A model generated the notes under the pieces. That model saw only the letters and a list, made by a program, of their open reading frames with translations. It was not told the origin of the DNA and made no database searches. From positions 1 to 58,083 of the IMG/VR virus record IMGVR_UViG_3300046355_000105: a DNA stretch of 58,083 nucleotides; one strand, written 5' to 3'. This DNA is from a virus. How positions within the stretch are numbered: position 1 is the stretch's first letter; every line of letters begins with the position of its first letter. Positions 6,894-58,057 of the stretch are shown here, piece by piece. The position numbers and the translations under genes were made by a program.

Positions 6894-7901
6894 ATGGCTG
6901 CTGTTTATCCCGTGACTGGCTCTGGTGCATTTGACACCACCCCTTCTTACTCTGGTGCTTTCATCCCTACCTTGTGGTCGGGCAAGCTCTTGGCTAAGTT
7001 CTACCAAAACACAATCTTGTCTGAAGTCACTAACACTGACTACGAAGGCGAGTTGAAGAACCAAGGCGACACCGTTCGCATCCGCTTGGCTCCTTCCATC
7101 AGCATCTCTGACTACACAGTCGGCCAGAGCTTGTCGTACGAAGTCCCCACTCCTATCTTCCAAGATATGCAAGTGAACAAGGGCAAATACTTCGGCGTGC
7201 AAGTGAACGACGTGTTGGCATATCAGTCTGACATCGCTTTGATGAACATGTTCACCGAAGACGCTGCCAAGCAACTGAAGATCGCCATCGAAAACGAAGT
7301 GTTCTTCAACAGCTTCGTTACCGAAGGCCCTGACGCTGCCAACGAAGGCGCTACAGCTGGCAAAATCTCTGCTGCTTACAACTTGGGCACTGATACTGCT
7401 CCAATCGACCAAGCAACTCCAGAGAACGTGCTCAAGGCTATCTTGCGCATGTCTACTGTGTTGGATGAGCAAAACGTGCCAGAAGACGGCCGCTTCCTCA
7501 TCATCAGCCCATACGACCGCCAGTTGTTGATGCAATCTAGCATTGCTCAAGCCTACTTCACCGGCGACCAAGCTAGCACCATCCGCACTGGCAAGATCGG
7601 CATGTTGGACCGCTTCAGCGTCTACGTGTCTAACTTGTTGCCTCGCGGTGCCGCTGGCAAGGCTTTGGTGGCTGGTTTGTCTGCTACCTCTACTGGTGGC
7701 TCTGTGACCGACGCTAAAGCACGTCGCGTGATGATCGCTGGTACTAAGCACGCTACATCGTTCGCGATGACCGTGAACAAGACCGAGCCATTGCGTAACC
7801 AAACAGACTTCGGCGACATCGTTCGTGGTCTGGCTGTGTACGGCCGCAAGGTTGTCAAGCCACAAGCGTTGGTGGTTGCCCAAGTTGGCTCCGCTAGCTA
7901 A
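6894..7901 (+). CDS. Major capsid protein
   Basis: A 335-residue shell protein. It follows the scaffold and precedes a strong terminator, and has a near-ideal Shine-Dalgarno (TAGGAGG) as expected for the most abundant virion protein. Features include an N-terminal arm, a GDTVRIR-type strand followed by an alternating segment, and a C-terminal RGLAVYGRKVV segment, consistent with an HK97-fold phage coat protein. Codon use is strongly biased towards a few codons (for example GCT, TTG, AAC), unlike its neighbours, which fits very high expression. Confidence 0.9.
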   Translation: MAAVYPVTGSGAFDTTPSYSGAFIPTLWSGKLLAKFYQNTILSEVTNTDYEGELKNQGDTVRIRLAPSISISDYTVGQSLSYEVPTPIFQDMQVNKGKYFGVQVNDVLAYQSDIALMNMFTEDAAKQLKIAIENEVFFNSFVTEGPDAANEGATAGKISAAYNLGTDTAPIDQATPENVLKAILRMSTVLDEQNVPEDGRFLIISPYDRQLLMQSSIAQAYFTGDQASTIRTGKIGMLDRFSVYVSNLLPRGAAGKALVAGLSATSTGGSVTDAKARRVMIAGTKHATSFAMTVNKTEPLRNQTDFGDIVRGLAVYGRKVVKPQALVVAQVGSAS

Positions 7902-8262: not shown

Positions 8263-8895
8263 ATGAAACCCCTTAGCGCGTTCTACCCACGAATCCTGCC
8301 ATATCTGCCCGGGTGTCCCGAGCCCATGGTTGACCAAGTGCTGGTGAACTCCGCTATCGAGTTTGCTGAGGCTTCTCTGACTTTGCGTCAGAACCTCGAC
8401 ATGTTTAATACCGTGGTGGGCAAGGTTGAATACGACCTTGACCCCCCTACTAACCAACACGACATCAATCGTGTCATGGGCGTAACGCTCAACGGGCGCG
8501 AGCTACGCCCCGGCTTGTTCGAGGCCATCCGCAACGACCTGCCAACAGCTACAGCAATCCCGCGCGGCTTCTACACTGACCGCACGGACAACACATTCAC
8601 ACTTCGTCTGTCACCTCCACCAGACAAGGTGTACCCCGTCGTTGTGTCGGTTACGCTGCGTCCCGCGCGAAACGCCACACAGCTCGACGATGACCTCTAC
8701 AACATCTGGATTGACCCAATCGTGTCTGGCGCAATCGCACGTGCGATGCAGATTCCAGACCAACAATTCACGAACCCGGGCCGCGCCGAAGAGTTGCTGA
8801 TGTCCGCTGCGAAGCAGACAAACAGCTCGCGCATCGAAGGCAACTACGGCCTCGTCCGTGGCTCAATGCGTGTTCGCCCACGCTCTTTTACTTGA
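8263..8895 (+). CDS. Head-tail connector/adaptor protein (probable)
   Basis: A 210-residue protein beginning with a motif typical of head-completion adaptors: a helix, then PYLPGCPEPMVDQVLVNSAI, then a conserved strand-rich region with LRLSPPPDKVYPVVVSV and a C-terminal helical region ending in basic residues. Such proteins bind beneath the portal. Position after the capsid supports it. No membrane segments or catalytic motifs. Confidence 0.6.
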   Translation: MKPLSAFYPRILPYLPGCPEPMVDQVLVNSAIEFAEASLTLRQNLDMFNTVVGKVEYDLDPPTNQHDINRVMGVTLNGRELRPGLFEAIRNDLPTATAIPRGFYTDRTDNTFTLRLSPPPDKVYPVVVSVTLRPARNATQLDDDLYNIWIDPIVSGAIARAMQIPDQQFTNPGRAEELLMSAAKQTNSSRIEGNYGLVRGSMRVRPRSFT

Positions 8896-8903
8896 GGTAG
8901 CCC

Positions 8904-9563
8904 ATGGCATTTTCCGCCCAAAACGTACTCCAGCGCGTGGTCATCACGCTGCTCGACCCGAACGCCATTCGCTGGCCCACGGCTGAACTTGTGCGCTACC
9001 TCAATGATGGCCAGCGCGACATCGCGCTCGTGCGCCCTGATGCAACCTCGACAACAGCCACCATGGCGCTGGCCGCTGGTGCTCGCCAGTCATTACCTTC
9101 TACTGGCGCAAAACTGCTTGAAGTCATCCGCAACACGAACGGCAACAAACGCGCCATTCGTCTCGTGAGCCGTGTGGTTCTCGACGCGCAGGTGCCCAAC
9201 TGGTACAACCTGACTGGCGTGACTGAGATCAAGCACTACACGTTCGACCCACGCGAGCCTCGTATCTTCTATGTGTACCCTCCAGCAGCTGCAGAGAACG
9301 CGTCTGCGGAGCTGATTTACTCGGCGTACCCTACCGACATCACTGAGCCATCCGCAGGGGCGCTGTACTCTTCTGTGAGTGGCAACATCAGTGTGGCGGA
9401 CATCTACGTCAACGCGTTGGTGAACTACATCCTGTACCGCGCGTATAGCAAGGACTCAGAGAACACCCAGAACGCTTCACTGGCTGCCAGCTTCTACCAG
9501 CTCTACCAAAACCTGTTGGGCGTTGAACTCAGCGGCACAACTGGCGTCGCGCCGAAGGACTAA
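8904..9563 (+). CDS. Second head-tail adaptor protein (probable)
   Basis: A 219-residue protein with VLQRVVITLLDPNAIRWP then ELVRYLNDGQRDI, the pattern of a phage adaptor family (I believe DUF6682) found after connector genes in podoviruses. The middle is strand-rich (YTFDPREPRIFYVYP) and the C-terminus helical (YILYRAYSKDSE). It starts eight bases after the preceding gene with a GAGG site. Likely a tail-completion or adaptor ring. Confidence 0.6.
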   Translation: MAFSAQNVLQRVVITLLDPNAIRWPTAELVRYLNDGQRDIALVRPDATSTTATMALAAGARQSLPSTGAKLLEVIRNTNGNKRAIRLVSRVVLDAQVPNWYNLTGVTEIKHYTFDPREPRIFYVYPPAAAENASAELIYSAYPTDITEPSAGALYSSVSGNISVADIYVNALVNYILYRAYSKDSENTQNASLAASFYQLYQNLLGVELSGTTGVAPKD

Positions 9564-25438: not shown

Positions 25439-28400
25439 ATGGCTATTTTCTCTTTGAACGAACTCCGCGCGGCAGCGCCCGCTGAGTTACAGGGCTTGTC
25501 CGACGACGCCCTTTTGCGTGACTACAGCCAGCGAGTCGGCAAGAGTTTTGAAGAGACAGCTGATTACTTCGGTTTCAAGCCACGCGGCACACTGGCCGAG
25601 ATGGGCCGCCAAGCAGTTGGTGGTGCTGTTGTTGACCTGCCCAAGATGGTTGGCCAAGGTCTGCAGTACACAGGCGCGGCTCCCGAGCTAGGTAAAGAGA
25701 TGGTTCAGGGCGCTGAACAGCGCTCAGTGGATTACGTGCCTGACATGCGTGGCCGTGGCCTCGTTGGCCAAGCTGGTGTTCTCGGTGCCCGTGGCCTTGC
25801 CCCTGTGGTAGCTACTGGCGCTGCTGCGCTCATCCCCGGTGTTGGTGAAGTGGCTGCACCGCTCGCCGCTGCTACGCTGTTCGGCACATCGTCTGCCCAA
25901 GAAACTTATGAGAAGCTGAAAGAGCAAGGCGCGTCTGAGCAAGATGCCATTGCCGCCGCTCGCCGTGTTGGCTTAATCCAAGGCCCACTAGAAGGTGCTG
26001 CTACTGCAGTTGGCCTTCGCGCAGCTAAGGGTCTCGCTCCGCTGGTTGGCCTAGGCGCTAAGACAACCGCTGGCGTTGCTGGCGAGTTGACTGAAACAGC
26101 AGTTACTAAGCCGTTCCTCAAGGGCATGGCTGTGAACGCGGCTGTCCAGCCCGGCACCGAGGTTGCTCAAGATTTAGGCACCTACGCTGTCGAGCAAGCC
26201 TACGGCGCAAAAGCTGAAGACCCATACGAAATCGCCAAGCAGTCCGCTTTGGGTGGTGCTGGCCTGACTATGCTTCTAGGCCCACTCTCACTGGGTGGCC
26301 ACATCTCACGTGCTCGCAAGGCTGAAGTCCTGCAAGCTGCGTTGAGCGAAGACGCTCCCGCTGACGTGCGTGCCCAAGCTACTAAAGCTGTAATGGCCGA
26401 AGCCCGTCGCCAAGGTGTTCCTGAGTCCGACGTGGGCACATGGTTCAACCAGCAGCTGGCGGTGGAAAAAGAATTCAACGACCGCGTCAAACAAGACGCG
26501 CTCAACCGCACTGTTGACCTCATGGGCAGCCAAGCCCAAGAGCTGCCATTCATGCAGCAGCAGACTTTCTCGTCGCTTGACCAGCAGCGCAACTTTGAGC
26601 AGGGCGTGGCGGATGTAAACCTGCAAACCCCTTTCTCGTCAGTTGACCAGCAACGTGGTATCGAGCAAGACCTCATGGGCATCCGTGACCGCAAAGTCGC
26701 AGAAGTCGGCCAGCAGTATCAAGATTTGGTTGGCCAAAAAGCGTCTGGCCTAATGGCTGCGCAGGACGTTGGCCAAGAGTGGCAACAGCTCCAGTCGAAG
26801 AAAGAAAGCGGCCTAGCCGCTGCTACGCAAGCTGGCGACCAATGGCAAGAGCAACGCGTTGCCCGTATCAAGCAGCAATTCGGCATCGACGACATTGGCC
26901 AAGAGTGGCAAAAACTTGCCGCTGAGTTACCTAAGCCAGTCAGTGCTGGTCTCACCAAGGGTCAACGAACAGCTTTGCTGGGCCCCAATGGTAAGCGTCT
27001 CAAGCAGACATCATCGCCATTCCAAGTCACAGAGCAGCAAGCGCCATCTTCGTCGCTGCTGCCACAAGCACCTGCCTACTCGTCGTCAATCCTCCCGCAA
27101 GAGGCTGCACCGTCGAGCTTGCTGGTAGCACCAACGACCACGCAACAAGTACAAGGAGCCCAAGGTGGCACTCAAACCGCTAAAGCCGTCCAAGCAAAAG
27201 CGCAAGGACAAGAACTCACCCCAGCAGAATCCGCTCAACTGAGCAAGTTGCTCGCTGACGCAGAAGGCGAAACCATTGGTGACGTGCTGCCCGCATCGGT
27301 GAAGTCCGGTGCCAAGGCTGTGCCCGGCCGCACACGCATCGACCAGTCTGGCCTCAAGCGAATCCGTGATGCACTGGTGCTTGGCAAAGAAGTCGCTGAC
27401 GAGAAGACTGGCCAAATCGTTGACTCTCTGCGCAACTTCGCCAACGCATACAAGGTCTACTCTGACCAAGGTGGCCAAGCCCTGTCGCGCCGCAACAAGA
27501 TCGCCAAGGGCAGCAACGCTGCGCAGTTCGCAGACGAGCAGTCGTCCGCCATCGAGATGCAGGCAGCCAACGTGCAAAACGCACTGGCCGAGCTGGGCAC
27601 CGCCGTCGGCGGCAACGCCAAGGACATCGAAGCCGTTGTGCGCCTCGTCAAAGACATGGTGCAGGGCAAGCTGGCCGCCCCCGGCAGCAACAAGAAAGAA
27701 GTCCGCGACGAGTTGAAAAAGCTCGACACCATGCTGTCACAGGCATGGGACGCTGCCAAGCGTGAAGTATTCATGGGCAAAGAGACAGACACTGCCGACA
27801 TTCGCACTAAAGCTATCCGTGGCTCCATTGAGGTCAAGGGCAAAGGCAAGATGCCTACGCTCGTAAAAATTGCCAAAGAGGGCATCTACGCAGGTAAAGA
27901 CCTCGGCATGCTTTACGAACTACCAGCAATCCTGCACTACATGCGCACCAACGGCACCCCCATGGAGCGTGCATTGGCATTGGCTCTGCGGGAGTCAATC
28001 GTTGGCAGCGAAAGCGACATCAAGCTGGAGTTCTCGAAAGACGGCAAACCCCGTTTCGACCCAGCCACCAACACGGTGTACCTGAGCGAAGAGGAATCGC
28101 CAGAAGTCATCTTGCACGAGGCGTTCCACGCCGCGCTGCAATCGTTCGTCTACAAGAACCCCAACCACCCTGCCGTTGTGCAGCTCAAGAAGTCACTCAA
28201 GTCAGTGGTTACTTACAAGGGCGAGCTAACTGGTAAAGCGTTGGAAGTTCAGAACCTGCTCAAAGACCTGATGGCCAAGGGCAACGAACTGGACGCTGTG
28301 CTCGAACTGGTCTCCTACGGCAACACGCTTGCTGAGTTCCGCAAGGCACTCCAAGGCATGAAGTCGGACAAGAACATCCCCAAGACTTTCTTGGAGTCCA

Positions 28401-36445: not shown

Positions 36446-37363
36446 TTACTCGTCGAACAGTGAGTCGAGCTTCGCGGCCAATTCATCCGATGCTTTTACA
36501 GGGGCAACGGTTGGCTTGGCAGCCACAGCCTTGGGCTGAATCACTTCAGCTTCAGCTGTGGAGTTACCTGCTGTTTCTTCCTCATAGGCATCGTCCACGG
36601 CGGGCTTGGCTGGTGCTGCGATTGCGGCCTTTGCAGCGGGGGCTGCGAGGGCTGGGCCAGCAGACGTAGGTGCGATTTGGCGGGTAGCCACTTTCACTGG
36701 GTCGCTGTCAATCAGAGCGTCAACGCGGGCAATGGCCTTCTCGGGCACATAGCCTTTTTGCTTGAACGTGATCTTAGGGAAGCTGGCTTGGTCGTCGAAA
36801 CCCAACTCAGTCACTGCCTCTTCTGGGCCAATGCCGTAGTTGCCGAGCTCTTTGAAGTATTCACGCAGGGCTTTCATGCCACTGACAGGAACGGTCAAGC
36901 TGTAGACCTTGGTGGGGTCAGCAGCTGCCACAACAGCGAGGTGACGCTGGTCAGCACACATCTTCGACTTTGCGCCGGAGGGCAGAATCTTGGAGCCGAG
37001 CACGTTGTTCGGGCAGTCGGCGCAGCCAGAGTGAACTGGTGCAGTCACAGATGCGTCAGGCTTCAGGCCATCATTCGACCAGCAATCAGGGCGGATGTTT
37101 TCAGCAGATGCGTCGAACGCCTTGGCGTAGAACACCTTGGACACGCGGGGGTTGGCACCAACGATGATGGTGTCGAGGGTGACGCCAACTGTGGTTTCAA
37201 CGCCGTCTTCGTTCAAGCGATAGCGACCAGCACGGATGCTGATGCGCGGGATGCTTGGGCCGTCAGAGACGATGGCCGAGGCGACTGCAGACTTAGTGCC
37301 TGCTTGTTGACGTGCAGCGATACGTGCTGCGATGTGTGCTGGGACGGTTGCGATATTGCTCAT
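36446..37363 (-). CDS. Probable ssDNA-binding protein
   Basis: A 305-residue protein with a strand-rich N-terminal domain (SIRAGRYRLNEDGVETTVGVTLDT), a Cys cluster (CWSNDGLKPD... CADCPNN... CADQRH), a linker rich in Ala/Pro, and an acidic tail ending KLDSLFDE. An acidic C-terminal tip is typical of single-strand binding proteins that recruit partners. Placed upstream of the primase in the replication module. The assignment is by context and overall pattern. Confidence 0.55.
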   Translation of the reverse strand: MSNIATVPAHIAARIAARQQAGTKSAVASAIVSDGPSIPRISIRAGRYRLNEDGVETTVGVTLDTIIVGANPRVSKVFYAKAFDASAENIRPDCWSNDGLKPDASVTAPVHSGCADCPNNVLGSKILPSGAKSKMCADQRHLAVVAAADPTKVYSLTVPVSGMKALREYFKELGNYGIGPEEAVTELGFDDQASFPKITFKQKGYVPEKAIARVDALIDSDPVKVATRQIAPTSAGPALAAPAAKAAIAAPAKPAVDDAYEEETAGNSTAEAEVIQPKAVAAKPTVAPVKASDELAAKLDSLFDE

Positions 37364-41162: not shown

Positions 41163-42984
41163 AGCTTCCTCCAACTCCAGTCTCACACGCAACAGGGATG
41201 CTGCGACACCACTTAGGTGTCATCGCAAGGCACTCTTCCATATACGCACGGGCTTCAACAAGTTCATCATCTCGCACTACACAGACAGCCTCGTCATGGA
41301 CGGACAGCTTCACTGGGTAGCGCTGGTTGATACGCGCAGTTTGCCACATAACGATCTGCATTGCGGCATGTTGCGATAAATTTTCTACAACTTTTGCACC
41401 GTGCAGATTTACCCGCATCTTGCCCATGGTGTACGTCCAGTTCTTGCCGTCATGCTCCAGCTCGTTATACATAACGCCCGGCTCGCCGGGGCGGCCAAAG
41501 CCATCCCACTGTGTCACGAACCAACCATTGACATCCACGTTTAGCATGGAGCAGCCGTTGGCGATATCTGGCAGGATTACTTTGTCGCAGCGCTTCCACA
41601 ACTCGACGACCTTGTAATGCACAGAGCGGTATAGGTCAACGATGGCGTATGCACGGTCGAGGTCAATCAGCTCCACGCCGGGGTCAGTGCGCTTGGCGAG
41701 ACGAACCATCTCTTGGAACCGTGCAGCGCCAGCGCCGTACTGCAAACCCAGCATCGCTGTCTTGCCCAAGAAACGCTCGGCCTTGTCTTTCTTCGTAATC
41801 TCACGGCCAAAGAGCTTAGACGCAAAGTCACAGTACAGGTCAACGCCGTTCTTCAACTTCTCGGTCACGTCGTCTTGGCCAGCCAGTGCCATCACTGTGC
41901 GGAGTTCAATGTTGGATGAGTCACCCACGAGAACGGTGTGGCCAGCAGGAGCCAGCAACGCATCGCGCAAGCCCGCTGAGGGGCCACGCGCAGGGATGTT
42001 TTGCCAGTTGATGGAGTTACCCCCAGAGTAGCGGCCAGTGGTCTTAGCGCCCCAGAAATTGAGGTACACGGGCAACGGGCCACGCTGTGCAGTTTCGAGG
42101 AACTTCAGTGCGCGGGTTTCTGCAATGGTCGTCTTGACGCCCAAGCGAGCCGCAACCAACGCCTGTACGTCTGCATCGTCGGACTCCAAGAGGTCGGTGA
42201 AGGCTTTGTCTGATTTGGCAAAAGCATAGGTTTCTTTATCTGGTCGTGCTTTGCTCGTCTTCATGGGCGGTGTGACACCAAGCTCCAGTAAACGGGCAGC
42301 GAATTTGTCGTTGGACATGATGATTTCGCGGGTGACTGTCGCGTCTTGCAACAGCTTCTCTTTGCGCACCAGCTCATCGTCATAGAGTTGTTTCATCTTG
42401 GCTTGGTCGCCCACCAGCATCGGCTCAGTGAACATGCGAATCGTCATGTCGATGAGACGCATAGCCAGTGGCGGTGTGAACGGGTCGAACTTCTTGCCCA
42501 GCTCTTTGCACAGCCATGTGTCGTGCTTGCAGTAGTCAGCGTACTCGGCTAATTCCATGGGATTAAAGTCCTCACGGCGTTTGCCAATCGCCTTTACAAC
42601 AGCAGTGCCCTTGTCGGGGAAAGCGTATTGCTTGGCCAAGTTGGCCAGTGAGTGATACTGCAAGAACGGCAACAGCATGCGGCCTTGGCCGAGGGTGTCC
42701 ATCCACAGCTTGGGCTTGATGCCACAGCGTTGCGTCAGGATGTAGCCGTCGAACAAAGTGTTGTGGCAGCGCACGGCTGAGTTCGCCCAGTCGTATGTGC
42801 CATGCAGCCAGCCAATCGTCTCAAGCTCTGAGCCACTGAACCACACAGCGTCTTCGTCATTCTTGATGACGGACACACCAATGATTTCAAAGCGGTCATC
42901 GTTGATGTACGCATCAGTCTGCATCTTCGACAGGGAGTAGTCCTTGTCGTAGTACGTCTCAAAGTCAACTGTTAGGATGTCCAT
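41146..42984 (-). CDS. DNA polymerase, family A
   Basis: A 612-residue replicative polymerase. The N-terminal 3'-5' exonuclease has VDFETYY (Asp7/Glu9) and DYCKHDTWL. The polymerase domain contains motif A GDSSNIELR (about 352-360), motif B FLGKTAMLGLQYG (about 400-412) and motif C VHDEA (about 560-564). Length is short but complete for phage family A enzymes. One copy of the repeat family (TAATTCCATGGGATTA on the + strand, 42550-42565) is inside the coding sequence, encoding NPMEL. Confidence 0.95.
   Translation of the reverse strand: MDILTVDFETYYDKDYSLSKMQTDAYINDDRFEIIGVSVIKNDEDAVWFSGSELETIGWLHGTYDWANSAVRCHNTLFDGYILTQRCGIKPKLWMDTLGQGRMLLPFLQYHSLANLAKQYAFPDKGTAVVKAIGKRREDFNPMELAEYADYCKHDTWLCKELGKKFDPFTPPLAMRLIDMTIRMFTEPMLVGDQAKMKQLYDDELVRKEKLLQDATVTREIIMSNDKFAARLLELGVTPPMKTSKARPDKETYAFAKSDKAFTDLLESDDADVQALVAARLGVKTTIAETRALKFLETAQRGPLPVYLNFWGAKTTGRYSGGNSINWQNIPARGPSAGLRDALLAPAGHTVLVGDSSNIELRTVMALAGQDDVTEKLKNGVDLYCDFASKLFGREITKKDKAERFLGKTAMLGLQYGAGAARFQEMVRLAKRTDPGVELIDLDRAYAIVDLYRSVHYKVVELWKRCDKVILPDIANGCSMLNVDVNGWFVTQWDGFGRPGEPGVMYNELEHDGKNWTYTMGKMRVNLHGAKVVENLSQHAAMQIVMWQTARINQRYPVKLSVHDEAVCVVRDDELVEARAYMEECLAMTPKWCRSIPVACETGVGGSYGDAK
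42550..42565. repeat. Palindrome family copy inside the polymerase gene
   Basis: TAATTCCATGGGATTA; the flanking 22 bases are identical to a copy at 46782-46797, which may mean transfer between the two sites rather than independent coding. Confidence 0.6.
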
Positions 42985-46634: not shown

Positions 46635-46808
46635 TCAGTCCTCATCATCTTCTGCCATAGCCATGTGGTCACGTATCAAGTCGAACTTGATGACATCCAA
46701 GATACCCAGCACAGTGGGCAACAACACAGCGTGTTCGTACTTGGCAATCACGTCCATGAGATCCTCGGTCATGCCAGCGGCTAATTCCATGGGATTAAGG
46801 TTTTTCAT
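46635..46808 (-). CDS. Small acidic protein
   Basis: A 57-residue protein (MKNLNPMELAAGMTEDLMDV and an acidic end AEDDED). GGAAG lies eight bases before ATG 46808. A palindrome copy overlaps codons 5-9. An alternative ATG at 46790 lies inside the palindrome, as in two other genes of this arm. The protein shares the NPMEL peptide with the polymerase because of a 22-base identical stretch. Confidence 0.45.
   Translation of the reverse strand: MKNLNPMELAAGMTEDLMDVIAKYEHAVLLPTVLGILDVIKFDLIRDHMAMAEDDED
46782..46797. repeat. Palindrome family copy (TAATTCCATGGGATTA)
   Basis: Inside or at the start of the small acidic gene; shares 22 identical bases with the polymerase copy. Confidence 0.6.
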
Positions 46809-46809
46809 A

Positions 46810-47004
46810 TCAGCACTTCCACAAGTAAACAGCCACTATGACCCACATGCACACAGCTACCCAGAAGAACAGTTTGTCCTGCCAGCGTTGCTCTGGTGGG
46901 AACCACCACTGCGCGTTCTCGATGTCGTCTTTGAAGGCGTCACGAGTTGTGCGTGGGAAGCAGCGTGTCGTGGGCCAGCCATAATTTTTATGATAGTTCG
47001 TCAT
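46810..47004 (-). CDS. Small membrane protein
   Basis: A 64-residue protein with a soluble N-terminus and one C-terminal span (KLFFWVAVCMWVIVAVYLW). Its stop is next to the following gene's start. Function unknown. Confidence 0.55.
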   Translation of the reverse strand: MTNYHKNYGWPTTRCFPRTTRDAFKDDIENAQWWFPPEQRWQDKLFFWVAVCMWVIVAVYLWKC

Positions 47005-47282
47005 GTGATTTTCCTGAACGTGATGGTGCCAATGATGTCACCACGGTGAACGATGTCGTATTCCTTGCCTTCCTTGGTCGCACCTGCACGTGCCATGTCA
47101 CTAAGCAACACAGTCATAGAGCGGCCAAGCGTTGACACGTACACCACAGCGGATTCTTCGTCGAGTGTCAACCACTCGTTGTCCTTGTCGATGTTTACGC
47201 CGAGCTCTTCAAAGCCGCGCACGAGCTTCGACTCGATACGCACAAGGCGGTTCAACAATTCTTTTTCGAGTTTATAAAGCAT
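47001..47282 (-). CDS. Protein of unknown function
   Basis: A 93-residue protein starting MLYKLEKELLNRLVRIESKL, followed by a strand-rich part (WLTLDEESAVVYVSTLG, DIIGTITFRKI). The ATG at 47282 is preferred because longer readings would overlap the upstream gene. About 97 bases separate it from the upstream metallopeptidase gene. Function unknown. Confidence 0.55.
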   Translation of the reverse strand: MLYKLEKELLNRLVRIESKLVRGFEELGVNIDKDNEWLTLDEESAVVYVSTLGRSMTVLLSDMARAGATKEGKEYDIVHRGDIIGTITFRKIT

Positions 47283-47379
47283 GGTTCTCTTTCGATGGTG
47301 GGGTACTCGCTTCACTGCGCCGACCTTCTGGACAAAGACATCCAGTGTCATCACGCAGCATCTGCTTTCCCCCAGAAAC

Positions 47380-48525
47380 TTATAGTGGAACCTCGACACG
47401 TGTGCCGAATGGTTCGCGTGGATGGCTGTAGCCGATGTCAGCCCAGATCATAGGGAATGGTGGCTCTTCACATTCAGAGAGGTTGCCCTCCATGTCGGTG
47501 AAGAAAATCATTCCGCAGTAACGCTCGTCTTGTTTGGCGAAGTGCTCGAACACAGGTTGGAACCGTGTGCCACCGCCACCCTTGGGGCGCAGCTGCAATG
47601 GCTCGTCACGCTCGAAGCGCTCGGTGTGCGTCACAGACCAGTCGCAGTACACCACCTCGACGAACGCAGGGTTGAGGTCGTCAACGATGGCTTGCAGCTC
47701 GGCAGCAATCTGGTTGCACTCGTCGGGCCCCATGGAGCCCGATGTGTCGAAGCCGATGGCCAAGCCACCCAGTGCGTCAGAGCGCAGCGATGGCATGTAG
47801 AGACCAGAGCCAATGAATCGGCGTGATGGGCGCAGGTAGCTGTAGTCAGCGGCAGCGCTCTCAGTCATCATCGAGCGGGTCACGTCTTGCCAACGCACCT
47901 TGGATTCGCCGACATGCTCAAGCACGCGGTCGATGAGCGTGGAACCTTGGCCGCAGTCCTTGGCCATCTTGGCAGCGGCCACGATGGATGCTTCCATGTC
48001 AACACGTGTTGCATCGTCCTGTGCGTCCTCAAGGTCGCCCTTGCCGTCGAAGCCACCACCGTTGGCGTTGTCATCTTCGTCGCCGTCACCAGAGCCACCG
48101 CCACCATTCTGTTGCTGTTGCTGCTGTTGTTCTTTGAGTTTGTTGTAGACCTCTTCGGATGACATCTCTTCACGCACCCAGCTGAGATGCACGCCACCCT
48201 TGGGCAGCTGCCAGCCACGGCTCTTGATGTACGCGTTGATGAGCGCATCGTTGGCCACGTTCCAAATCTTGGGGTCGCGTCCCTCACGACGCCACATGTG
48301 CATCAGCACTACGTGACATGACTCGTGCAGCACGAGGCCGAACAGTTCTTCGTCTGTCAGCTTCTCGCAGAACGCTTCGTTGTATCGCACCCAGTTGCCG
48401 TTGGTGCCAGCAGTAGATACCCTGTCAGAGACCTCGCGCTTGACGCGGGTCATGACTGCGGCGATGAACGCTTCACGCAGTCCGAGCTTGCTGTATGCGA
48501 GGTCTAGCCTATCCATAAGTGCCAT
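47380..48525 (-). CDS. VWA/metallopeptidase-like protein (MoxR partner)
   Basis: A 381-residue protein. An N-terminal HEXXH-type metallopeptidase motif (VLHESCHVVLMH, His67/Glu68/His71) is followed by a Gln/Gly/Asp-rich linker with a poly-Gln run (133-140), and a VWA-like domain with DTSGSM (about 259-264) as in DUF2201-type proteins. It works with the MoxR AAA ATPase encoded just upstream. The ATG follows a CACTTATTTACT leader motif and GGAG. Confidence 0.85.
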   Translation of the reverse strand: MALMDRLDLAYSKLGLREAFIAAVMTRVKREVSDRVSTAGTNGNWVRYNEAFCEKLTDEELFGLVLHESCHVVLMHMWRREGRDPKIWNVANDALINAYIKSRGWQLPKGGVHLSWVREEMSSEEVYNKLKEQQQQQQQNGGGGSGDGDEDDNANGGGFDGKGDLEDAQDDATRVDMEASIVAAAKMAKDCGQGSTLIDRVLEHVGESKVRWQDVTRSMMTESAAADYSYLRPSRRFIGSGLYMPSLRSDALGGLAIGFDTSGSMGPDECNQIAAELQAIVDDLNPAFVEVVYCDWSVTHTERFERDEPLQLRPKGGGGTRFQPVFEHFAKQDERYCGMIFFTDMEGNLSECEEPPFPMIWADIGYSHPREPFGTRVEVPL

Positions 48526-48549: not shown

Positions 48550-48825
48550 TCATTGTTCGAGAGCGTATATCGCCTCGACCCATAGTTTAGCATCGTCAAT
48601 GCTGTCGAGCCAGTGTTTCGTTGCAACAGGATGCCAGCTTATCTCTGCGTAAATTTTGCCGACCTGTCGCGTTAAATACCATGGCTCGATGTTGACGTGA
48701 GCGAAGCGGTAAGTCCGCATCTTCCCACGTGGAGCTGCTGCGTTGGGGTCAGGTAACTCTGCACGAGCTACCCACCCACCATCGCCATGCTCGTGCCACA
48801 CCAGTTGGTAGCCTGCTAATCCCAT
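48550..48825 (-). CDS. Small protein (paralogue of the next gene), start inside a palindrome
   Basis: A 91-residue protein (MGLAGYQLVWHEHGDGGWVA ... IDDAKLWVEAIYALE). The ATG lies inside TAATCCCATGGGATTA. Its C-terminal pattern (ID-x-AKL-[WY]-V-x3-[FY]-ALE) matches the neighbouring gene, so they arose by duplication. Function unknown. Confidence 0.6.
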   Translation of the reverse strand: MGLAGYQLVWHEHGDGGWVARAELPDPNAAAPRGKMRTYRFAHVNIEPWYLTRQVGKIYAEISWHPVATKHWLDSIDDAKLWVEAIYALEQ

Positions 48826-48832
48826 GGGATTA
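48817..48832. repeat. Perfect palindrome TAATCCCATGGGATTA at a stop/start junction
   Basis: The only fully symmetrical copy. On the - strand its first three bases are the TAA stop of the upstream gene (48830-48832) and its centre is the ATG of the downstream gene (48825-48823). Confidence 0.85.
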
Positions 48833-50195: not shown

Positions 50196-50211
50196 TAATC
50201 CCGTGGGATTA
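50196..50211. repeat. Palindrome copy TAATCCCGTGGGATTA
   Basis: Supplies the TAA stop (50209-50211) of the 72-residue upstream gene. Confidence 0.8.
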
Positions 50212-50703: not shown

Positions 50704-51585
50704 TCAGCTCTCCAGCATTGCGTTGATAGATGCCAGCAATGCAGCGGACTGCACGTTGACTTCGCGGCGCTTCTCTGGGTCGTCACGCAACTGTTGAGGG
50801 TGCGGTGTTGTGTCTGCTACGGACTTGGCCATGGCCAGCACGTTGTCGGGAAGAATCTCGGCGAACGCATGAAGCAAACTGATTTCCTCCATGATGTTGT
50901 CCACCACTGAATCGCGGAAGATGGGTGGCTTGACTTCGCTGTTGCCAGTCTTCTTGTTGACGACTTCGCGGTCGGTCTTGCCAGTCACTTCGTTGAGCTT
51001 CTGCACGACATCCTTGAGGCGCTCCAGTGGGGCACGCAGCATGTTGTTCATCGACTCTTTGGTGGCAGCCTCGACTTCGGCACGCAGTGCGTCCATCTCT
51101 TCTGATTGCAACTGCACACGGAAGTCACCAGAGTCAGTGACTGGGCGGTAGTTGACACGGAAGCGGAAGTCGCTCTTGAGGTCAGTCAGGTCAGGGTACG
51201 CGTTGGCATCGAACAGCTCGCCTTGTGAGGCAGCGGCCTGTGTCATCACGTTGCTCCAGTTGTTGAGGAACGCAGTGACGCACTGGTCGAACTCGACTTG
51301 GTATTTGCCGATGCGCTCGGTGAACTCCATGAACTTCGATGTTGGCAGCAGATACTCGCCACGTGTCCACATGTATGTGGTGCTCTCAATGTAGGCACGG
51401 GCACTTGACTCGACTGTGAGGATTGGTTGCACCAGTGACTTGGGGTACAGGTCTTTGCGGAACTGCCCTGCGCCGTGTGCATTGTTTGCGTCCTCGGCGT
51501 CACGTGTGGCCTTGTCGTCTTTCTTGGTCATCTGTGGCTTATTCACGCTAAGTGAAACCAACAGCGCGTGGTTTTTGATACTCAT
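50704..51585 (-). CDS. Protein of unknown function near the MoxR operon
   Basis: A 293-residue helical protein (SLVQPILTVESSARAYIE; FTERIGKYQVEFDQCVTAFL; QLQSEEMDALRAEVEAAT). Its size and position resemble DUF3150-like proteins that occur with MoxR/VWA genes, but I cannot confirm this. The palindrome lies directly before its Shine-Dalgarno. Confidence 0.5.
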   Translation of the reverse strand: MSIKNHALLVSLSVNKPQMTKKDDKATRDAEDANNAHGAGQFRKDLYPKSLVQPILTVESSARAYIESTTYMWTRGEYLLPTSKFMEFTERIGKYQVEFDQCVTAFLNNWSNVMTQAAASQGELFDANAYPDLTDLKSDFRFRVNYRPVTDSGDFRVQLQSEEMDALRAEVEAATKESMNNMLRAPLERLKDVVQKLNEVTGKTDREVVNKKTGNSEVKPPIFRDSVVDNIMEEISLLHAFAEILPDNVLAMAKSVADTTPHPQQLRDDPEKRREVNVQSAALLASINAMLES

Positions 51586-51595
51586 AATTTGCTCC

Positions 51596-51611
51596 TAATC
51601 CCGTGGGATTA
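51596..51611. repeat. Palindrome copy TAATCCCGTGGGATTA
   Basis: Supplies the TAA stop (51609-51611) of the upstream gene; GGAG of the next gene follows directly. Confidence 0.85.
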
Positions 51612-52106
51612 CTTGGTTGATGATGTGGTTGTTGTGCCCTTTGGCCAGCCCAGTTTGCTCAGGTCAGCGACCACGTTGGCCAGTGCTGGCAGGTTTGCGG
51701 CCTTGGCATCTGGCTTGGGGTAATACTTCTCGAACTCTGGCAAGCGTGTCATCAGCTGCTTGTATGTGCTGCACGATTCGATGGCACCCTTGAGTGAACG
51801 GCGTGCGGCCACGACTGCCTCGTCCTCGGCTTTGTACTTCTTGGTCAGCTCGTCAATGACTACCTCTTTCACGTCACCCACGATGATGTTGCGTGAATCC
51901 CAGTTGCCGTCATAGATGACATCACCAAGGTGGTAAGTACGCAGGGCGCTTGGGCAAGACTTGTAGAGCTTGCGTGCTTCGGGTGACATCGCCTTGACGA
52001 CAGCCGCCTGCAATTCCTCCTTGCGTTTCTTTTTGTCTGGGGTGGGCAAATCGTGCATGATGGCTCGGACGATGGCTTCTTTGTCGTATTTGTTGATTCG
52101 TGACAT
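51609..52106 (-). CDS. Conserved protein of unknown function
   Basis: A 165-residue protein with YDKEAIVRAIMHDLPTPDKK near the N-terminus. The pattern recalls phage proteins of the Nmad5 class (putative nucleotide modification-associated), but I am not sure. Start preceded by AGGAGA and the leader motif. Confidence 0.5.
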   Translation of the reverse strand: MSRINKYDKEAIVRAIMHDLPTPDKKKRKEELQAAVVKAMSPEARKLYKSCPSALRTYHLGDVIYDGNWDSRNIIVGDVKEVVIDELTKKYKAEDEAVVAARRSLKGAIESCSTYKQLMTRLPEFEKYYPKPDAKAANLPALANVVADLSKLGWPKGTTTTSSTK

Positions 52107-52561: not shown

Positions 52562-52577
52562 TAATCCCGTGGGATTA
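52562..52577. repeat. Palindrome copy TAATCCCGTGGGATTA, in the leader
   Basis: Lies about +33 to +48 relative to the predicted start of the 52617-52645 promoter, in the 5' untranslated region. Confidence 0.85.
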
Positions 52578-53742: not shown

Positions 53743-53758
53743 TAATCCCGTGGGATTA
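53743..53758. repeat. Palindrome copy TAATCCCGTGGGATTA
   Basis: Supplies the TAA stop (53756-53758) of the upstream gene; the next gene's AGGA begins right after it. Confidence 0.85.
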
Positions 53759-54514: not shown

Positions 54515-54716
54515 GGTGTGCCTCCAGCTTCTCACGGAACTTGATGAAGCGGTTGTGCGCCTCCACTACCTGAGTGCGTGCGTCTTCGTTGGTGATGAAA
54601 GTCATCAGCATCATCTTGGCCACACGTGCCTCGTCTTTGAATTTAAAGGCTGCACCAGTGGCAATGGCTGCCCAGATGAACAGGATGAACTCGGTGGTTG
54701 TGATATTTAATTCCAT
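54507..54716 (-). CDS. Small membrane protein, start inside a palindrome
   Basis: A 69-residue protein with one membrane span (about 9-25: EFILFIWAAIATGAAF) and a helical tail. Its ATG lies inside a palindrome copy (54708-54723). Function unknown. Confidence 0.55.
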   Translation of the reverse strand: MELNITTTEFILFIWAAIATGAAFKFKDEARVAKMMLMTFITNEDARTQVVEAHNRFIKFREKLEAHRD

Positions 54717-54723
54717 GGGATTA
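54708..54723. repeat. Palindrome copy TAATTCCATGGGATTA at a start codon
   Basis: Contains the ATG of the downstream membrane protein gene (54714-54716). Confidence 0.8.
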
Positions 54724-55702: not shown

Positions 55703-55731
55703 ATTGTAACGTATTACTCGTAGCTTGTCAA
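55703..55731 (-). promoter_or_regulatory. Strong early promoter (- strand)
   Basis: TTGACA (55731-55726), 17-nt spacer, TACAAT (55708-55703). Predicted start about 55696. Its spacer shares AGTAAT with the 52617-52645 promoter. It drives the long early operon. Confidence 0.85.
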
Positions 55732-55748: not shown

Positions 55749-56249
55749 TTATACGTTGAAACCCAGCTTTTCGAGCTGTGCCCGTGCGCGGTCTGCGTTG
55801 ATTTTCTGCTCAGCCAGCGTTGGATTGTCTGGGTCTGCTGGGTTGTACTCAGGCAACTCGTCCAGATTGAGTGACGCGCCCTCAAGTTCAGCGGTCTTTG
55901 CATCATGCAACTTGCTACGCACTACAGCCAACGGCATCCCATACGAATCAGCAATGCTGGTTAGCAACTCGCCACCCTTGTGCCTGTGTAGTATCTCTTC
56001 GCGCCATGCGTTTGGCTCTGTAGGAATAGGTACACGGATTACTTGTGGTTTGTTTGGTTGGGCTTGTGGTGTTTCTTTCTGCACACTTACTCGCAGCTCT
56101 GCTAGTGGGTCAACTGTGATGCCAAGCTCGACTGCTTTGGTCTTGAAATGTGCTCGGATGTACGACGACATAGTGTGACCTGCCGACTCGCAAATGGCCT
56201 GTATTAGTTTGTGTTCGGTCTCATCGACGCGGAAGTTGACTATTTTCAT
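55749..56249 (-). CDS. Putative RHH/HTH DNA-binding regulator
   Basis: A 166-residue protein. The N-terminal region NFRVDETEHKLIQAICESAG then MSSYIRAHF matches the ribbon-helix-helix fold used by small repressors; residues ~95-118 (LLTSIADSYGMPLAVVRSKL) resemble a helix-turn-helix. The gene has its own promoter overlapped by inverted repeats that may be its operator. It is the best candidate to bind the genome's repeats. The regulator role is inferred. Confidence 0.6.
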   Translation of the reverse strand: MKIVNFRVDETEHKLIQAICESAGHTMSSYIRAHFKTKAVELGITVDPLAELRVSVQKETPQAQPNKPQVIRVPIPTEPNAWREEILHRHKGGELLTSIADSYGMPLAVVRSKLHDAKTAELEGASLNLDELPEYNPADPDNPTLAEQKINADRARAQLEKLGFNV

Positions 56250-56267
56250 GATTTTTCCCTCGAAAAG

Positions 56268-56279
56268 TGTAAAGCCTAA
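56268..56279. promoter_or_regulatory. Operator candidate, left arm (TGTAAAGCCTAA)
   Basis: Forms a 12-bp inverted repeat with TTAGGCTTTACA at 56320-56331; overlaps the predicted start of the RHH/HTH gene. A degenerate copy GTAACGCCTAAA occurs at 56291-56302. Confidence 0.55.
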
Positions 56280-56307
56280 TTATATACCACGTAACGCCTA
56301 AATAAAG
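56279..56307 (-). promoter_or_regulatory. Promoter of the RHH/HTH regulator
   Basis: TATAAT on the - strand at 56284-56279 in the sequence TGGTATATAAT, the same 11-bp string as in the promoter at 57722-57751. The -35 region (CTTTAT at 56307-56302) is poor. Expected start about 56272 lies inside the operator. Confidence 0.5.
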
Positions 56308-56319
56308 TAAATATCTTCT

Positions 56320-56331
56320 TTAGGCTTTACA
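56320..56331. promoter_or_regulatory. Operator candidate, right arm (TTAGGCTTTACA)
   Basis: Partner of 56268-56279; a partial copy TTTGCTTTACA follows at 56332-56342. Confidence 0.55.
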
Positions 56332-56385
56332 TTTGCTTTACAAATTTTTTGGTAATTTGCTTAATTTTTGGGCACACCTTGCCGT

Positions 56386-56777
56386 TTTAGCAGCTAAATC
56401 CCACGGGATTAGTTGGGCTGGCGCTATCTTTAGCAGGGCCGAACCTCTGGGAACCCGCATGGATACTGGGTTTAGCAGATTAGCAGCAAATTTAGGCGAG
56501 AGAGAGGTTTTTATGGGGGAAGGTTTGGCTCGGCCAAACGATAATGAAAGGCTGTGTGTCTCAACTATTTCCTCTCTTATTTTTATCTGCTAAAGCTATT
56601 AATACTATAACCCTTGTTTTTGCTGTGCTGGCCCCCGTAAGTCGTTGATTTTAAAGGCTTTATTATCTCACTACATTACTCGCCATTAAAAGTTATAGCA
56701 GCAAAAAGTGGCCCTAGGTTTTATGCGGAAATCCTTATCTAAAGTCGCGCAAACCCGCATGAATAGGACTTTAGCAG
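56386..56777. repeat. Cluster of TTTAGCAG repeats
   Basis: TTTAGCAG at 56386, 56429, 56471, 56770 (ATTAGCAG at 56479, TATAGCAG at 56694) and its reverse complement CTGCTAAA at 56587. The first copy is within the odd palindrome TTTAGCAGCTAAA (56386-56398). Confidence 0.65.
56396..56411. repeat. Palindrome copy AAATCCCACGGGATTA
   Basis: Opposite central orientation (AC) and one mismatch; directly after a TTTAGCAG repeat. Confidence 0.75.
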
Positions 56778-56829
56778 CTCTACTTGGCTCTACAGCTGGG
56801 CTCGCGGGGTGGTTGCATTTTCGTCGCCC

Positions 56830-56895
56830 TTACGTCTTTCTTACGTCGCTAATCCCGTGGGATTACGTTGCTTTTACATCGGTCACGATTACGTC
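56830..56895. repeat. TTACGTC iterons
   Basis: TTACGTC at 56830, 56841 and 56889 and TTACGTT at 56863, at 11-, 22- and 26-base spacings, close to whole helical turns. A palindrome copy (56850-56865) overlaps them. Confidence 0.55.
56850..56865. repeat. Palindrome copy TAATCCCGTGGGATTA
   Basis: Exact copy in non-coding DNA, between TTACGTC repeats. Confidence 0.85.
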
Positions 56896-56900
56896 GCGGG

Positions 56901-56912
56901 CATGATAGTAGT
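56901..56912. repeat. CATGATAGTAGT repeat 1
   Basis: One of four exact 12-bp copies, plus one with a single mismatch, all in the last 1.2 kb of the window. Confidence 0.75.
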
Positions 56913-56950
56913 GTGTTCTCATGGCGCGGCCATTCGCGCACTGCGCAGCG

Positions 56951-56962
56951 CATGATAGTAGT
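56951..56962. repeat. CATGATAGTAGT repeat 2
   Basis: Exactly 50 bases from repeat 1, both preceded by GCG-rich sequence. Confidence 0.75.
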
Positions 56963-56978
56963 CAGGTATTGCGGACGC

Positions 56979-57003
56979 AAAAAAGCCCGCTTGCGCGGGC
57001 TTT
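56979..57003 (-). terminator. Intrinsic terminator after the 57017-57643 gene
   Basis: On the - strand AGCCCGC pairs with GCGGGCT around GCAA and is followed by six T's. Confidence 0.85.
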
Positions 57004-57016
57004 GGATGGCTTGGGT

Positions 57017-57643
57017 TTAGGCTGCTGCCTTGCCATGGATGCGTACACCCTTGGCCGCTTTGGTGAGAATGTACCCTTTTTCAATTAGGCGGGCTTCGAT
57101 TTTGGGGCGGTAAACTGCATCCCCCAAGTATTCCGGCAAGTTATCAAGCCACGCCGTGAACGCGTCAATTTCTTGCATGTCTGGCGCGGGTGTCGCTGCT
57201 GGGGCTTTGGCCTTTGGTGTCACTGTCTTAGGTGACACTTTACGCGCCACGCCGTTTGCTTCGCGCACCTGCTTTGCAGCGTCCCGCATTGCGTGCTTTG
57301 GCATTTTCACTGCGTCCGCTGCTTTAATGTGCTTTTCGGTTTTCTTGCCGTCCTTGCCTACTGCATCCACTGTGACGGGCGTTTGTGCTGCTGCGTGCAG
57401 TGTCAGTGCATCCACAAAAAGACTTTTTACATTGTGGCCCGCTGCCTTGAAATCGTCCGCATACAGTGAAACAACTGCAGCGATACGGCCAGAAAATGGG
57501 GTTTCAGGGTTTAATTGTTTTGCAGCTTTGGCCGCTGCGTCCTTGCAGCTTTGCAGCATTGTGCCCGCTGCTTCGCCCGCTTTGCCGATGAGTGCGCCCA
57601 CGGCTGCGTCACGTGAACCGATGATTGTGGATGATTTTGTCAT
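57017..57643 (-). CDS. Early Ala/Lys-rich protein of unknown function
   Basis: A 208-residue protein, helical and basic in its middle, with an Ala/Pro/Lys-rich linker (KVSPKTVTPKAKAPAATPAP) and a C-terminal domain (FTAWLDNLPEYLGDAVYRPK). It has its own promoter, a leader motif and a terminator, so it is a single-gene early unit. Possible DNA- or host-protein-binding factor; no family recognised. Confidence 0.6.
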   Translation of the reverse strand: MTKSSTIIGSRDAAVGALIGKAGEAAGTMLQSCKDAAAKAAKQLNPETPFSGRIAAVVSLYADDFKAAGHNVKSLFVDALTLHAAAQTPVTVDAVGKDGKKTEKHIKAADAVKMPKHAMRDAAKQVREANGVARKVSPKTVTPKAKAPAATPAPDMQEIDAFTAWLDNLPEYLGDAVYRPKIEARLIEKGYILTKAAKGVRIHGKAAA

Positions 57644-57711: not shown

Positions 57712-57725
57712 CCATGGGATTATTA
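57712..57725. repeat. Palindrome half-site (CCATGGGATTATTA)
   Basis: Overlaps the -10 and start of the promoter at 57722-57751; could allow control at initiation. Confidence 0.5.
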
Positions 57726-57751
57726 TATACCATATCTGGCGGGTATGTCCA
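57722..57751 (-). promoter_or_regulatory. Early promoter for the 57017-57643 gene
   Basis: TGGACA (57751-57746), 18-nt spacer, TATAAT (57727-57722) within TGGTATATAAT. Expected start about 57715. A palindrome copy (57760-57775) lies just upstream and a half-site covers the -10. Confidence 0.75.
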
Positions 57752-57759
57752 CAATTTAT

Positions 57760-57775
57760 TAATCCCACGGGATTT
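57760..57775. repeat. Palindrome copy TAATCCCACGGGATTT
   Basis: Upstream of the -35 of the 57722-57751 promoter; opposite central orientation. Confidence 0.7.
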
Positions 57776-57778
57776 TCG

Positions 57779-57790
57779 CATGATAGTAGT
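57779..57790. repeat. CATGATAGTAGT repeat 3
   Basis: 57 bases from repeat 4. Confidence 0.75.
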
Positions 57791-57835: not shown

Positions 57836-57847
57836 CATGATAGTAGT
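57836..57847. repeat. CATGATAGTAGT repeat 4
   Basis: Just before the terminator of the 30-residue gene. Confidence 0.75.
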
Positions 57848-57885: not shown

Positions 57886-57978
57886 TCATGGAACGAGGCA
57901 GTCGAAGTACATGAGCATGAGCGCCAGCATTGGAACCATGAAAACCAACGAGCCGATGAAAGTCTTGAGCTTGTCCAT
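57886..57978 (-). CDS. 30-residue membrane peptide
   Basis: A short protein (MDKLKTFIGSLVFMVPMLAL then a second hydrophobic stretch) with AGGAG before the ATG, its own promoter and terminator. The whole monocistronic unit is strong evidence it is real. Possibly inhibits a host function or excludes other phages; unproven. Confidence 0.65.
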   Translation of the reverse strand: MDKLKTFIGSLVFMVPMLALMLMYFDCLVP

Positions 57979-58045: not shown

Positions 58046-58057
58046 GATGATAGTAGT
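58046..58057. repeat. GATGATAGTAGT repeat 5 (one mismatch)
   Basis: Eight bases upstream of the -35 box of the right-end promoter. Confidence 0.65.

Follow-up and report, generated by a model that had tools for sequence, protein, structure and literature searches.

The window analysed here is a complete IMG/VR virus record of 58,083 bases. Family scans place the late genes (for terminase-, portal/adaptor- and internal-virion-like proteins) on the plus strand up to about 32 kb, and the early and replication genes on the minus strand from 32.5 kb to the record end. The replication and early gene set encodes a PrimPol/DUF927 protein, an SNF2 helicase, an exonuclease, a family A polymerase, and VWA and AAA proteins, and no integrase appears among the listed Pfam and PHROGs matches (one PHROGs table giving the best 25 of 88 families). 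There is no close DNA match among 50,697 phage records; the nearest named phages show neither a DNA-level match nor a homologue of the protein that we call P2, and the 50704-51585 protein is found in named phages in only three records, at 27% identity. The source is apparently a virulent tailed phage from an uncultivated family.

The stretch studied is the early control region of this phage family. It centres on a 767-base block (56250-57016) between the P2 gene and a gene for a ribbon-helix-helix-like protein. The features of the block and of the early genes around it are given below, with the strand where one is assigned; the palindromic sites are named as candidate operators.

42551-42564: candidate operator with one mismatch, within the DNA polymerase gene (codons NPMEL)
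46783-46796: candidate operator, one mismatch, close to the start of a small gene
48818-48831: candidate operator at a gene junction
50197-50210: candidate operator at a gene junction
51597-51610: candidate operator at a gene junction
52563-52576: candidate operator in the leader behind a TACAAT promoter
53744-53757: candidate operator at a gene junction, sharing bases with the stop codon of the gene before it
54709-54722: candidate operator, one mismatch, overlapping a start codon
55646-55659: candidate operator in the leader following the promoter at 55731-55703
55703-55731, minus: sigma-70-like promoter, TTGACA-17-TACAAT (promoter scan)
55749-56249, minus: gene for a 166-aa ribbon-helix-helix-like protein with a NikA-like N-terminus (P0001)
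56265-56347: inverted TTTAGGC/CTTTAC repeats around the promoter of 55749-56249 (from the sequence)
56386-56777: repeat cluster TTTAGCAG/CTGCTAAA, putative origin iterons (56386, 56429, 56471, 56479, 56587, 56694, 56770)
56397-56410: candidate operator AATCCCACGGGATT, upstream of gene 55749-56249
56830-56895, minus: GACGTAA repeats (56830, 56841, 56863, 56889; sequence count)
56851-56864: candidate operator AATCCCGTGGGATT, within the non-coding block
56902-56912, minus: CTACTATCAY element (ATGATAGTAGT on the plus strand)
56952-56962, minus: CTACTATCAY element
56980-57006, minus: terminator-like hairpin with a T run directly behind P2 (read in the sequence; unflagged by the scan)
57017-57643, minus: gene for P2 (208 aa), a candidate operator binder; conserved as the first gene of the early region
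57722-57751, minus: P2 promoter, sigma-70-like, TGGACA-18-TATAAT (promoter scan)
57761-57774: candidate operator upstream of the P2 promoter
57780-57790, minus: CTACTATCAY element upstream of the P2 promoter
57837-57847, minus: CTACTATCAY element upstream of the P2 promoter
58047-58057, minus: CTACTATCAY element upstream of a small gene

Some further sequence features were observed in the early region. A leader motif, ACTTRTTYACT, stands 11-16 bases before start codons of minus-strand genes in the window; six of its seven window copies are no more than 60 bases away from a called start, and it is missing in several relatives. The product of 51609-52106 (minus) has a C-terminal match to Nmad5, a nucleotide-modification-associated domain, and 57886-57978 (minus) is a small, membrane-like ORF of 30 aa with its own promoter (58038-58010) and a terminator-like hairpin (57881-57866).

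The palindrome TAATCCCRYGGGATTA occurs 12 times in the record, allowing at most one mismatch in the core, and every copy lies within 42.5-57.8 kb, that is, in the early half. Twenty whole-record shuffles gave one hit in total, and 59 palindromes with scrambled arms gave four, with a maximum of one each. When viral contigs were scanned for one exact form of the palindrome, at least 119 stretches were returned. A collection of 551 copies from 125 sequences, in which overlapping loci are counted more than once, showed arms that hardly vary and, with few exceptions, an R-Y centre. The site inside the polymerase gene has a counterpart at the same codons in G002, G004, G007, G010, G011 and G012. Text searches found no paper containing the motif letters, and wider literature searches likewise returned nothing on this system.

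The same palindrome was found in 98 stretches of prokaryote genomes (257 Gb), with one site each, below a chance estimate of about 240 that assumes even base composition; no multi-site stretch, and no prophage with several sites, was present. This sub-chance level of single sites identifies the palindrome as a phage motif and not a host regulon. Binding by a host regulator might still be considered, the phage binder being so far a candidate only, but with no clustered host regulon behind these 98 single sites we regard it as highly improbable.

To describe where the sites lie, we used genes called in the relatives by a simple caller of our own, unchecked against annotation. The window and 15 relatives (16 records, some partial) contain 152 sites. 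A wider, non-redundant set of 292 sites was obtained by thinning on flank similarity only; it leaves out 16 loci shorter than 4 kb, as well as sites that stand close to a locus end or in mixed-strand surroundings. In this set, 105 sites overlap a preceding gene's stop codon, 22 fall within called genes and 165 lie elsewhere. At the stop-overlapping sites, the TAA of the upstream gene is provided by the first three bases of the palindrome. Among the 165 other sites, 53 are preceded at 41-70 bases by a -10 hexamer (TATAAT, TACAAT or TATACT), whereas no 10-base bin elsewhere holds more than six, and 50 of these 53 also have a TTGACA-like -35 box. The median distance from the -10 box to the start of the site is 50 bases, which corresponds roughly to position +43.

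Another 12 sites, including the one at the P2 promoter, precede a -10 box, as would be expected of activator elements of middle promoters. However, promoter-linked sites are mostly found downstream of the -10 box (53 versus 12), where activators rarely work, and an activator role is accordingly unlikely. The positions also bear on the idea that the palindromes are boundary sequences for recombinational exchange of modules between early genes. Such a role would agree with sites placed exactly at junctions in a region of changing small genes, but it would not predict the fixed promoter distance, or copies within the polymerase gene and ahead of the P2 promoter; moreover, 16 bp is short for homologous exchange. 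We consider this explanation very unlikely.

On the sense strand, the centre of the palindrome is AC in 117 sites and GT in 52 (p = 6e-7, a value that overstates independence, since the sites share ancestry). This bias, together with the location of most sites in a transcribed leader or between genes, would be compatible with a palindrome that works at the RNA level by forming a short hairpin, the target of a translational repressor or nuclease, and the RNA does fold, albeit weakly, into a 6-bp hairpin. Single-arm deviations on the sense strand, however, comprise 12 cases of G11>A and none of C4>T, the reverse of what the keeping of G-U pairs would produce; this argues against an RNA hairpin and for an effect of orientation on DNA. 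The 12 sites that precede their promoter, and the arm sequence being fixed within each type (see below), also speak against action in RNA, which seems improbable to us.

Relatives were collected by alignment of the AAA protein, which yielded 80 loci, 71 of them at 53% identity or more; these loci overlap, so that raw counts repeat some DNA. At least one perfect site of the window's type (type A) is present in 67 of the 71. In its place, L300, L301 and L302 carry ATTCCC-RY-GGGAAT and L319 carries ATTTTC-GC-GAAAAT, and a further relative, L394, has TTCTAAC-GC-GTTAGAA, so that the half-sites across types A to D are AATCCC, ATTCCC, ATTTTC and TCTAAC; types C and D are represented by one contig each. 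Nine loci at 36-40% AAA identity have no type A site and no obvious dispersed palindrome (the palindrome scan covering all of them save L326). Sites of the other types occupy the same kinds of position, in layouts that match those of type A, although the -10 search in types B, C and D found few boxes. The occurrence of a different palindrome on the same layout amounts to a switch of operator specificity.

The CTACTATCAY elements behave differently. All five window copies are on the minus strand, at 56.9-58.1 kb, and in relatives the element is nearly confined to the control region. It is kept in L300-L302, L319 and L394 despite their differing operators; in one group of relatives it is replaced by CTACTGTCAY. 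Most of the 13 upstream regions inspected show the order CTACTATCAY, CTACTATCAY, operator, promoter, P2. Located upstream in this way, the elements may mark the master early promoters.

P2 is present in 22 of 29 clustered sequences, the other seven being partial contigs or ones covered incompletely here (G007, G011 and G016), and in both the window and L394 it is flanked by operators on both sides. The protein has no Pfam or PHROG match, and comparison of its fold with the PDB (Foldseek, VIA-align) gave nothing convincing (best Z 4.5); a search of BFVD returned a single match, an uncultured phage protein with 59% identity. In the AlphaFold model (pLDDT 79 overall) the N-terminal two thirds are confident, and we judge a pair of strands with two helices behind it to resemble a helix-turn-helix. 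In types A and B, the second predicted helix of the primary copies starts with K/R-[HN]-x-[ML]; in type C it starts with KTVA and in type D with KQKA. The differences in C and D would fit covariation with the operator; P2 of these two types has diverged throughout, the type D homologue being a weak HMM match (E 0.0012), and from type A (L297) to type B the helix hardly changes. Two sequences with many operators contain paired P2 paralogues (G015, 26448-27044 and 27325-27873; G028, 7140-7685 and 8501-9175).

We view P2 as a putative DNA-binding protein by the look of its sequence and its position, and its assignment as the operator binder is tentative, falling somewhat below an even chance. Universal early proteins encoded at 47001-47399, 36446-37363 and 50704-51585 may bind the sites instead, and the first of these families was modelled as an alternative binder. 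The ribbon-helix-helix-like P0001 was also considered as a universal regulator and was ruled out, being present in few relatives.

The non-coding block was initially singled out as a candidate origin or master control region with several families of iterons. The repeats themselves are real: each of the families listed in the original prediction is present, above chance. For TTTAGCAG, described as seven copies in both orientations, we count eight positions when one mismatch is allowed; since one of these (56391) is the second half of the palindrome TTTAGCAGCTAAA, the figure of seven stands. Five copies are exact (56386, 56429, 56471 and 56770 on the plus strand, 56587 on the minus strand), a number reached by none of 500 dinucleotide shuffles, and the rest of the 58-kb record holds two. 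The four TTACGTC repeats with spacings of 11, 22 and 26 bases comprise three exact copies (56830, 56841 and 56889; again 0 of 500 shuffles) and TTACGTT at 56863, and GACG-rich stretches are found in relatives too. The two palindromes, whose cores of 14 bases occupy 56397-56410 and 56851-56864, are two of the 12 in the record, and the two short repeats are ATGATAGTAGT (56902 and 56952) and AACCCGCATGRATA (56452 and 56752). The block is indeed AT-rich (45% G+C, and 30% in its first 110 bases, versus 55% for the record), and our simple caller, too, found no gene in it.

What the original prediction missed is the extent of two of these families. The palindromes span 15 kb and ATGATAGTAGT, with three further copies beyond the block (57780, 57837 and 58047), extends over the P2 promoter, which rules out a single iteron array for all repeats. 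Both belong not to iteron families but to a genome-wide regulatory system, and are consequently uninformative on an origin. The idea of a master control region stood up, since the order of elements is kept beside the same gene: in the relatives examined, the block is non-coding and shows a CTACTATCAY pair, an operator, a repeat cluster, a promoter and an operator. An origin is possible for the TTTAGCAG cluster only.

The block yielded little at the RNA level. Single-strand folds were unremarkable (z -1.7 and +0.5), an Rfam search gave nothing near the cut-offs, and RNAalifold on 14 blocks predicted no pairs, the gappy alignment making this weak evidence. The inverted TTTAGGC/CTTTAC repeats are possibly a local operator of gene 55749-56249. 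TTTAGCAGCTAAA itself (56386-56398) is a single copy with A at its centre. It resembles the operator of KorB from IncP plasmids (consensus TTTAGCSGCTAAA), a 13-bp palindrome with G or C at the centre, from which it differs in the centre base.

To compare the block behind P2 among lineages, we used 36 of 50 P2 loci plus the window (37 blocks, several limited to 900 bases), and counted 7-mers after masking, by our own choice, the operators, CTACTATCAY and the GACG repeats. In 21 blocks, no more than one of 200 shuffles matched the count of the most frequent masked 7-mer; the other 16 did not pass. The repeat unit differs between lineages, being CTGCTAA in the window and L342, AATTAGT/AACTAAT in the L333 group, CAATCTA in L368 and L371, and GAGTAGA in L354, and the place of the cluster is constant. 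The TTTAGCAG cluster thus plausibly behaves like lineage-specific iterons.

If the block is a replication origin, a phage initiator would bind the TTTAGCAG-type iterons and open the AT-rich DNA. A unit that changes between lineages at a fixed place, the 21 blocks above shuffles and the AT-rich composition favour such a role. The likeness to iteron-type origins lies in a short-repeat cluster in AT-rich DNA, here above chance. On the other hand, the repeats occur here in both orientations, 16 of the 37 blocks exceed the 1-of-200 line, and no initiator candidate emerged among the proteins, 55749-56249 being ribbon-helix-helix-like. GC skew, proposed at the outset as a check, went against an origin as well: the cumulative minimum of the record falls at 49.1 kb and not at the block, and the skew of 10 genomes, also when corrected for gene strand, has no consistent extremum there. 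Overall, we see an origin as a serious possibility that stops short of being probable. It can coexist with operators in the same block, the two involving different sets of repeats.

The nearest known concept is that of the stoperators of L5 and other cluster A mycobacteriophages. As described (PMC9283540), these are more than 20 dispersed asymmetric 13-mers, located in promoters, short intergenic gaps and transcribed regions, which are bound in an orientation-dependent manner by the monomeric immunity repressor of temperate phages; they are proposed to stop both initiation and elongation, with a specificity that varies between relatives. In common with them, the sites here occur in many dispersed copies, at promoters as well as in short gaps between genes, and differ in specificity between relatives; stoperators are asymmetric with a fixed orientation, whereas our site is a 16-bp palindrome with only a mild centre bias (117:52). 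L5 is temperate, and here no integrase is among the listed families; nor does any listed PHROGs or Pfam match of the window proteins correspond to an L5-type repressor (HTH plus stoperator domain). With a palindromic site and no lysogeny genes seen, the system is not a member of the L5 class, but by analogy it may work like a stoperator regulon.

Lytic phages offer other parallels. The T1-like phages TLS and Stevie carry dispersed repeats of 20-22 bases, mainly intergenic and upstream of starts (PMC11447400, PMC4319613). Those of TLS are placed about 76 bases ahead of starts and have the consensus aaATAGCACnnnTTGnTAAAA, and the TLS paper names their role as an open question (PMC11447400). The T1-like repeats are asymmetric, belong to Drexlerviridae and differ in consensus (aaATAGCACnnnTTGnTAAAA versus TAATCCCRYGGGATTA here). 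Among three named distant relatives, Rhizobium phage RHph_TM3_14A, which has a gene annotated as a putative integrase, carries dispersed GTTACC-N6-GGTAAC near early gene starts, with copies often abutting the start codon or sitting inside genes. Planktothrix phage Pag-Yong1 carries GGTTCAG-N-CTGAACC, mostly 17-28 and often 21-22 bases before the next start, and Pseudomonas phage Rollin showed no dispersed palindrome by the same scan. RHph_TM3_14A and Pag-Yong1 thus share with our phage a related gene set and dispersed early palindromes, but the sequences and spacers differ from TAATCCCRYGGGATTA.

On balance, we lean towards interpreting the palindromes as dispersed operators of a stoperator-like regulon, through which a phage-encoded dimeric regulator, most likely P2, would turn the early genes down. 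Strong early sigma-70 promoters would fire upon infection, allowing a dimeric DNA-binding protein to accumulate, again most likely P2, whose promoter itself carries an operator. The regulator would then occupy its own promoter region, the leaders near +43 and the early-gene junctions, and the bound sites would block initiation or elongation, so that early transcription falls; P2 would limit its own expression through the operator at its promoter. The TTTAGCAG cluster would be a separate element in the same block, possibly an origin. What speaks against such a regulon is that it is not obvious why a phage that does not lysogenise would need a dispersed repressor.

For years, lytic phages have been known to carry dispersed intergenic repeats to which no function was assigned. 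A single palindrome on the early genes, at a set distance from promoters and changing as a set between relatives, turns them into a testable question, and leads one to expect a dimeric regulator, encoded by the phage, with a specificity that follows the palindrome; next to the operators, the lineage-specific repeat cluster provides a concrete candidate origin. More speculatively, and we hold this to be rather doubtful, an obligately lytic lineage may have placed its whole early programme under a dispersed roadblock regulon whose specificity switched at least three times on a constant layout, much like immunity groups without lysogeny. The regulator would silence co-infecting relatives of the same type, which would drive the switching, and this could be a general device of virulent phages. 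If the regulators do affect relatives that share the cell, an immunity-like barrier without lysogeny would exist among virulent phages.
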